Positions 48,301 to 51,300 of a stretch of DNA of 64,000 nucleotides are shown piece after piece. Both the position numbers and the translations under genes were made by a program. Position 1 is the stretch's first letter; every line of letters begins with the position of its first letter. Source of the DNA: Liolophura sinensis. Taxonomy: Eukaryota; Mollusca; Polyplacophora; Chitonida; Chitonidae. The stretch spans positions 875,501 to 939,500 of the forward strand of contig NC_088303.1 of NCBI RefSeq assembly GCF_032854445.1. The letters run 5' to 3'. Below the pieces are notes generated by a model that had not been told where the DNA came from, did no database searches, and saw only the letters and a program-made list of their open reading frames with translations.

Positions 48301-51300
48301 TCTTCATGGCTGAACTGATTCATTTCTGTGATTGGTGCGTGCTCGAAAATTTCTCACTTTTTGACAGGAGTCAGATTAAACACTTACCTCAAAACTGAAC
48401 AAAAACACCACAAATACAATTAGGCCTGTTTCAGTTTATAGGCTGAGGAAATCACCACACCTAACCCGCTACCTGACCTAAGCCTGCAGGTAGATCTTCT
48501 GACCCACCTGTAACAAGGCCTCTCTCTCTCGTCTTCGTCTCTGAATAATGGCATCCTCATCCTCATCTTCATCAGGGTCAATGTCCAAACTACAGGTAGA
48601 AACAAGAACTGTCACTTTACCTCACACTGGATGTTCATCTTACTCCACTACCCGTCAGGGACTGTTATTCGGTTCAGAAAATTGAGCTTAAATGTCAATT
48701 TTGGCATCAGAAACAGAATATTTTCAGTAATAACTATTCTCAATTAAATTGCCTGAACATTGAAAAAAGATGGGAAAACTGAATTCGAACAGCAAACCTT
48801 TCTAAAACAAATTCTCAGGCGATTGTCCGTCACACAATTTTACATGGTCTAATAATCAGCCCATCGATGCATGTTACTGAGGTTCTTAACAAAAACTGAA
48901 TCATTACGTATCAAACGTAATGATGATGGTGTTTTTTAGTATTTGGAGGTGACATCACAGATGGTGCTGTTTGTACTGTAGTTGTCTCCCCTTTATGCAT
49001 GCTTGATCAGTCAATGGTAAGATTTACATGTAGCTGTGTCCTGTAAATGTGATATTGGAAGTGTCAAATTAGCAGAATCATAGGAAATTCAATCCAGAGC
49101 AAAATTTAGGAGTTTATCTGATTGGGGAGAAAAAGTAAAGCAAGAATTCTGGGGAAGCAAACATCTAATAATACGTTTCTACTGTTTTGTTTGTCAACTG
49201 AACAACCCGACTCTGAAGAAAGCCTAATGTAATGTGACTGCCTCTCAAACTGGGCAAAAATTAAATACAGAACTGAGAAGGTTAAGGAAAACAAAATGCC
49301 ATTTTCTCTTGGAAAATAAAGCAGAAAAGAATATTTAAAAGAAAGTTGCAGTATTACATAAACAGTATTTAAAGATAAAATTAAAAGAAAACTTCCAACA
49401 TAAAATATTACTTGTAGGCTTAAACTTTATGTTGAAATGAATCAAAGAATATAAAGACGTTATTTTTTTCAAAATAAGTTGCTGTATGAATTGTATCAAT
49501 TTACATGTACTACATTCCAAGCTGTAAAATGGAGCTTAACAGAAATACATAGGTAATGGCACAATACAATATAACATTTAGCTTGATATGTAAAATAGAT
49601 TTTAACAAACAACAGACTCCAAATTGTTTGGTAAATTTTTTTTAAACTCAATTTGGTGAAAAAAAAAACCAGTTCTGAGACTTTGGACTTTCATGAATCC
49701 CTGTTACCACAAAGTTGTCCAAAACTTCTCACATATAACTTTCCATTTACCAACAAGCACACTTGATGAAAGAAGTTGTAAGTAAAATTGACTTACATTT
49801 CCTCATCTGAAGACTCTTGCTCTTTACTGAGGGCTTGACCCTCTGACAAACTGCCTTTGAACTTGTCTTCGGCCTTGCCCCCTGACTTCCTGTCTCGATC
49901 ATCCCGACGCCGCCCATAACGATCATTAGATCTGCTCCTTCGGTGCCTCCTATAATCGTCTGACCGCCATCCTGGAGATCTACAGCAAAAACAGAACAGG
50001 TAAATACAGGTATACTAGAGCCTGAGTGCTTTCACTGCTAACTTTATGTAACCTGTAATTGTCTGATTGCCATCCTGGAAATTTACAGCATAAGCAGAAC
50101 AGGTAAGTACAGGTATACTGGAGCATGAGTGGTTTCACTGCTAACTTTATGTAACCTGTAATTGTCTGATCGCCTGCAGGAGGACGTACAGCATAAGCAG
50201 AACAGGTAAGTAACGGTATACTGGAGCATGAGTGGTTTCACTGCTAACTTTATGTAACCAGTAATTGTCTGATTGCCTGCAGGAGGACGTACAGCATAAG
50301 CAGAACAGGTAAGTAAAGGTATACTGGAGCATGAGTGGTTTCACTGCTAACTTTATGTAACCAGTAATTGTCTGATTGCCATCCTGGAGATGCACAGCAT
50401 AAGCAGAACAGGTAAGTAAAGGTATACTGGAGCCTGAGCGGTTTCACTGTCAACTTTATGTAACCTGTAATTGTCTGATTGCCTGCAGGAGGACGTACAG
50501 CATAAGCAGAACAGGTAAGTAAAGGTACACTGGAGCCTGAGTGGTTTCACTGCCAACTTTATGTAACCTGTAATTGTCTGATTGCCTGCAGGAGGACGTA
50601 CAGCATAAGCAGAACAGGCAAGTAAAGGTATACTGGAGCCTGAGTGGTTTCACTGCCAACTTTATGTAACCTGTAATTGTCTGATTGCCTGCAGGAGGAC
50701 GTACAGCATAAGCAGAACAGGTAAGTAAAGGTATACTGGAGCCTGAGTGGTTTCACTGCTAACTTTATGTAACCTGTAATTGTCTGATTGCCTGCAGGAG
50801 GACGTACAGCATAAGCAGAACAGGCAAGTAAAGGTATACTGGAGCCTGAGTGGTTTCACTGCCAACTTTATGTAACCTGTAATTGTCTGATTGCCTGCAG
50901 GAGGACGTACAGCATAAGCAGAACAGGTAAGTAAAGGTATACTGGAGCCTGAGTGGTTTCACTGCTAACTTTATGTAACCTGTAATTGTCTGATCGCCTG
51001 CAGGAGAACTTACAGCATAAGCAGAACAGGTAAGTAAAGGTATACTGGAGCATGAGTGGTTTCACTGCCAACTTTATGTAACCTGTAATTGTCTGATTGC
51101 CATCCTGGAGATGCACAGCATATGCAGAACAGGTAAGTAAAGGTATACTGGAGCCTGAGTGGTTTCACTGCTAACTTTATGTAACCTGTAATCGTCTGAT
51201 TGCCATCCTGGAGATGCACAACATAAGCAGAACAGGTAAATACAGGTATACTGGAGCCTGAGTGGTTTCACTGCCAACTTTATGTAACCTGATTGCCTGA

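Follow-up and report, generated by a model that had tools for sequence, protein, structure and literature searches.

The PRPF4B gene of the chiton Liolophura sinensis, read from the reverse strand of a 64,000-nucleotide stretch of contig NC_088303.1 (positions 875,501 to 939,500; hereafter the window, numbered from its first letter), carries a tandem array of 103-bp units that ends at the start of one of its exons. We consider it likely, with a probability of roughly 0.8, that this array is a mirage, that is, a minisatellite-like tandem array which was founded on a segment straddling the splice junction and which grew from that junction. Mirages, i.e. duplicated exon-intron boundaries, have been published from amphioxus genes.

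The founding segment would have consisted of about 73 intron bases and the opening 29-31 bases of the exon. One tandem duplication would have copied the junction, and unequal exchange or slippage would then have added further copies on the intron side, where they would behave as intron sequence, lengthening the intron and drifting. The real exon would most likely go on with its own acceptor, its splicing undisturbed. The features concerned are the following.

49981-51291: 103-bp array as called by Tandem Repeats Finder (TRF); period 103, 12.7 copies, 94% matches, 0% indels
50054..51289, minus strand: twelve 103-bp units, the probable mirage array, of 3' splice-site type (TRF and unit alignment)
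49980..50053, minus strand: intron part of the junction copy, carrying the true acceptor TTGCTGTAG
49949..49979, minus strand: opening 31 bases of the PRPF4B exon, homologous to the array (28/31 to the best unit)
49797..49979, minus strand: PRPF4B exon, arginine/serine-rich (RS-rich) part, 183 nt; donor GTAAGT at 49796; open translation

The junction and its twelve copies

When cut at a common anchor, the array resolves into 12 complete units, all exactly 103 bp long and gap-free, from u01, the farthest from the exon, to u12, the nearest; the thirteenth copy is the real junction itself, which reads TTGCTGTAG/ATCTCCAGGATGGCGGTC (the slash marking the splice site), with exon base 1 at 49979. The unit covers both intron and exon bases of this junction: the edge called by TRF is one base off it, and the homology runs on into the exon of the same gene. 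On the exon side, 28 of the 31 bases match the best unit, u01 (score 47; 500 dinucleotide shuffles gave a mean of 14.0 and a maximum of 25, none equal), and on the intron side the final 73 bases reach 114, where the best shuffle gave 29 (0/500 as good). An earlier note on this DNA had reported that array and exon edge align through intron and exon bases alike, which these shuffles bear out on either side of the junction; its figure of 26/31 for the nearest unit agrees with the 5 differences found in 29 exon columns of u12. The same note spoke of exon 4. There is indeed an exon at the array, but its number is not established, as its frame has no simple join to the neighbouring candidate exons. 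The PRPF4B exons were located by tblastn with a human fragment, which matched this RS-rich one at E 4e-4; its peptide found nothing in the PDB, even with E allowed up to 10. When the 609-Mb genome was searched at the DNA level with three units, scoring the best candidates only and skipping very common words, this yielded 7 overlapping matches, all within the array.

Four units (u01, u02, u09 and u12) are exon-like (E), and the other eight carry a block beginning with TGCAG (P). This block, of the TCCTCCTGCAG type, is exactly CGTCCTCCTGCAGG in 7 of the 8. It is confined to inner units, among which u04 is identical to u06 and u05 to u07, and no source for it was found elsewhere in the window, all 7 matches lying inside the array.

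The AG homologous to that of the true acceptor is gone from all 12 units, where it is replaced by GC in 3, AC in 7 and AA in 2. The newer TGCAG of the 8 P units is a different AG, located 12 bases further in. Splice-like AG and GT signals are thus present in many units and not in all, at the new TGCAG in 8/12 and at the homologous AG in none. This modifies what the earlier note had made of the array. Its statement that the array amplifies the 3' splice site is right insofar as the boundary has been copied; the copies nevertheless do not amplify the true acceptor, because the homologous AG is lost in 12/12 units. Likewise, the supposed dozen or so decoy acceptors come down to the 8 new TGCAG sites, none of which copies the true one, and the pattern of acceptor, block and GT applies to the 8 block-bearing units with exceptions: u10 ends TACT/GG, and u03 and u11 read GCGATC. 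An early and single loss of AG in the founder copy (TAG to TAC or similar), which we think probable, would explain all twelve losses, and selection could do so too. The unit type with TCCTCCTGCAG would have arisen later and spread to 8 of the 12 units.

The occurrence of these sites in a gene coding for a splicing kinase raises the question of whether the 8 TGCAG acceptors serve as decoys, or in a feedback on the splicing of this very gene. Two features of the sequence speak for such a regulator: in the P-type unit that was scored, 11 of the 15 bases ahead of the AG are pyrimidines, the same as at the true acceptor, and a CAG/GCAATCAGACAATTACAG/GT exon, 18 bases long, would leave the frame intact. 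We nonetheless hold this function to be very improbable, given that no unit retains the true-acceptor AG, that the GTTACA following the block is a poor donor by the consensus, and that similar structures exist in unrelated genes (CCT5, a CCT3-like gene, an MCM gene and kinesin genes), so that a special link to a splicing kinase is not supported. On the plus strand of 50054-51289, a strong-looking antisense donor motif, CAGGTAAGTA, is present in 9/12 units.

Direction of growth

The earlier note had left two possibilities, that the array grew from the junction or that the 5' end of the exon was recruited from the array. The first is favoured, because the end units are exon-like, because CpG dinucleotides of the exon face CpA in the units, and because in sister cases from other junctions (see below) the copied exons are conserved coding sequence; the homology across the junction points the same way.

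As regards the end units, u01 and u12 show 11 and 12 differences from the junction copy over 103 positions, and the ten inner units 13-20. New unit types would thus have spread within the array, both end units staying exon-like. As regards CpG, the first such dinucleotide of the exon is CpA in 10/12 units (kept in u03 and u11) and the second in 11/12 (kept in u01). CpG usually decays to CpA. The strongest of the three lines in favour of the exon as source is the last, from the conserved coding exons of the sister cases.

Several observations weigh against growth from the junction. The differences in the intron part of the units range from 7 to 11 without any trend (u01 8, u12 7; also 7 in u04 and u06), so the contrast between end and inner units comes from the exon part alone; in addition, four E units placed at random among 12 would fill both ends in about 9% of cases. 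For these two reasons the end/inner argument, taken alone, is weak. Nor is the CpG argument one-sided, since three other columns have a CpG in some units (1, 1 and 7 of 12) but none in the junction copy. The exon begins within an RS-rich stretch that evolves rapidly, and assembly error may affect the repeats.

Some of the same points would suit the opposite course of events, in which the last unit of a pre-existing array gained a new acceptor (TGTAG) and thereby turned exonic. The exon edge belongs to a loosely constrained, RS-rich part of the protein, the AG is found in the junction copy and in none of the 12 units, and no end/inner trend shows in the intron parts. Recruitment of this kind is, however, unlikely in our view. 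It sits badly with the decay of two exon CpGs in most units and with exon-like units at both ends; the SPGW..DDYRRH of the exon resembles, by eye, the peptide of another PRPF4B candidate exon, as expected of original RS-type coding sequence; and for the sister cases with conserved exons, an exon that came first is the only sensible reading.

Other arrays in PRPF4B and in surveyed genes

Several more arrays are found within PRPF4B, one of which is a candidate mirage of the 5' splice-site type.

39117..39270, minus strand: PRPF4B catalytic-loop exon; donor GTGAGC at 39116; matches solved PRP4 homolog kinases
37578..39107, minus strand: 98-bp array, candidate 5' splice-site mirage, units with a diverged copy of the end of the catalytic-loop exon
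40890..42792, minus strand: 91-bp array, at the donor of the exon that ends at 42795, from intron position +3 onwards
39743..39948, minus strand: 51-bp array, ending 18 nt short of an acceptor (exon start 39724); homology restricted to the intron side
51412..54263, strand not assigned: 29-bp array of 98.7 copies, separate and upstream of the 103-bp array; adjoins no located exon

The catalytic-loop exon is conserved in the solved PRP4 homolog kinases, and 21 of 26 bases at its end are matched in the 98-bp array (0/300 shuffles as good), although a stricter ungapped scan of this array gave no exon copy above threshold. The 91-bp array showed no exon homology in the shuffle test. A 77-bp array (35758-37243), which by eye looked like a degenerate copy, was rejected, neither side having beaten the shuffles.

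For comparison, loci of four families were located by Pfam: 9 chaperonin, 9 proteasome, 8 MCM and 12 kinesin loci, compact multi-exon loci being picked (Pfam matches used: 47/50, 17/21, 26/26 and 52/132, respectively). With PRPF4B, the survey comprises 39 loci, 252,139 bases, 51 arrays and 306 exon edges. Arrays were called by TRF and counted from 100 bp upwards; L008 166-225, L017 7632-7700 and several short rows of the window were dropped, pairs of TRF rows were merged in L008 and L037, and the unit lengths that TRF gave for L038, L040 and L047 were cut down to the basic unit by inspection. Pfam match segments stand for the exons; splice sites beside arrays were set by eye, as was the edge of the CCT3-like 60-bp array (3600; TRF gives 3522). 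The names CCT3, CCT2, MCM9 and KIFC are those we take these genes to bear; CCT5 and PRP4 were checked against solved structures. From this material, 20 junction-array pairs were picked by eye for closeness, leaving out L013 1-320, L035 1-547 and L047 1265-1573.

In 9 of the 20 pairs, which include both 5' and 3' splice sites, the exon side beats all 300 shuffles.

PRPF4B: 103-bp array (3') and 98-bp array (5')
CCT5: 109-bp array (5')
CCT3-like: 66-bp array (5') and 60-bp array (5')
MCM: 64-bp array (3')
Kinesin: 34-bp array (5'), 27-bp array (3', marginal) and 125-bp array (5')

In CCT5 the array repeats the final 45 bases of the neighbouring exon without a mismatch (45/45), and this exon matches solved CCT epsilon subunits (E 2.8e-20). 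Among control pairs of an edge and an array more than 300 bp apart (350 pairs, 12 loci), none scores 25 or more, which is the lowest score of the nine positives. On the other side of the balance, 2 of these 350 pairs exceed their own 100 shuffles, and the kinesin positive in L047 is marginal, its score of 25 being one above the best shuffle (24). In the remaining 11 pairs the exon side does not beat the shuffles, even though four of the arrays (PRPF4B 91-bp, CCT3-like 27-bp and 41-bp, kinesin 27-bp) lie within 13 bases of a junction. Among the arrays set aside, three kinesin arrays (73-bp and 31-bp in L038, 34-bp in L040) are close to a junction without homology to it, and an array beside a CCT2-like exon (L015) and a kinesin 44-bp array (L038) have intron-side homology only, 49 and 26 nt off the junction, and were left out of the crossing arrays.

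A dispersed repeat, satellite or mobile element that landed by chance at an exon edge would be a natural thought in genes so rich in arrays (37,667 of the 252,139 bases surveyed). It is extremely improbable as the origin of the 103-bp array, whose units matched their home locus alone in the genome search described above (best candidates scored, very common words skipped), and each array among the nine positives repeats the edge of the exon beside it.

The homologous splice dinucleotide was scanned in ten other arrays and was readable at nine. It is kept in 6/6 copies in CCT5, in 7/7, 4/5 and 10/11 in the CCT3-like arrays, in 43/43 in MCM, and in 13/18, 11/13, 28/41 and 0/4 in the kinesin arrays; since it is mostly kept at these nine, the loss of decoys is not a rule. 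Beside the MCM exon, 43 copies of the 64-bp unit were found (L035:779-3568), every one of them reading TTGCAG or TTACAG where the acceptor would be; part of this array is not open in the frame shown. The CCT3-like 66-bp array (L013:1746-2174) is open throughout in the frame of its exon, at 22 residues per unit, and use of a decoy donor there would lengthen the protein without a stop.

How often arrays would meet exon edges by chance was calculated from a null in which founding units are uniform over array-collapsed loci, with some exon edges uncertain by as much as some 20 bases. Of the 51 arrays, 9 include 20 or more exon bases, against 3.06 expected (P = 0.0023), and 13 cross an edge or are at most 13 nt from it, against 6.06 (P = 0.005), 12 of these 13 coming from TRF coordinates and the CCT3-like 60-bp array from alignment. 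As the window had been picked by the finding, the calculation was repeated without PRPF4B (43 arrays), giving 7 against 2.47 (P = 0.009) and 10 against 5.02 (P = 0.021), respectively. Exon edges are therefore not avoided by arrays and are modestly over-represented. The mirages are patchy and located in array-rich genes: no array comes as near as 13 bases to any of the exon edges used in 9/9 proteasome, 7/9 chaperonin, 7/8 MCM and 8/12 kinesin loci. Because the sample is small and clustered (four of the ten crossing or near arrays outside PRPF4B are in L013) and the exon models are partial, we claim no mechanism that targets splice sites. The arrays of this genome seem to begin at nearly any place in a gene except the inside of exons, and moderately more often at splice junctions than chance would give.

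Elsewhere in the window, a single open frame at 13433-16183 with leucine-rich repeats and a TIR-like end is by eye a Toll-like receptor gene. Three diverged stretches (about 21715-21999, 30816-31064 and 57252-57698), each with one frame like FTPYSRIFHLYDG.QH.GGWKPG, look by eye like copies of a short interspersed element. A 20-bp unit array of 5.4 kb occupies 3078-8454 (269 copies by TRF).

Probable mirages in a second phylum

The amphioxus cases include Adh, troponin C and PGBD5 of lancelets (PMC3902484), and one of the cephalochordate papers puts mirages forward as a model for intron gain. The PRPF4B array resembles them in that an intron-exon boundary is copied in tandem with AG/GT in many but not all units, and we also liken to them the fact that both 5' and 3' boundaries are hit within a gene family. 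A homogenisation of inner units with exclusion of the cluster ends may be a further likeness, but the intron parts taken alone show no such trend. The array differs from them in its mollusc host, in its unit of 103 bp and in the loss of the homologous acceptor AG from every unit; unlike the lancelet cases, those reported here concern other genes and another phylum, several of them having come from one survey. The haemocyanin of the genome agrees with a mollusc host: eight beta-sandwich domains of the molluscan type (PF14830) follow one another on contig C8, and none of 14 control genomes, all of prokaryotes, has such a domain. With intragenic tandem duplication the PRPF4B array shares a duplicated segment that contains splice signals; here, however, an existing intron is lengthened, and there is no sign of a new intron at the PRPF4B exon. 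In the open-licence literature (titles, abstract openings and term counts), no report of mirages outside amphioxus was found.

A broader proposal would be that tandem duplication is drawn to splice junctions throughout the genome of L. sinensis, two to three times as often as chance seeding would have it and perhaps co-transcriptionally, through R-loops or pausing, with a continual copying of exon edges into introns as the result. We regard this as unlikely; if true, the copied edges would furnish material from which new splice sites, exons and introns could arise.

Mirages thus also occur in a second animal phylum and may be frequent in it; the kind of structure is known, and what is notable is the host phylum and the frequency that it seems to have there. 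With several mollusc cases at hand, it becomes possible to test in a second phylum how tandem duplication starts at splice junctions, how the spliceosome handles dozens of good-looking copies, such as those of the MCM array with AG in 43/43, and whether such copies give rise to new exons.
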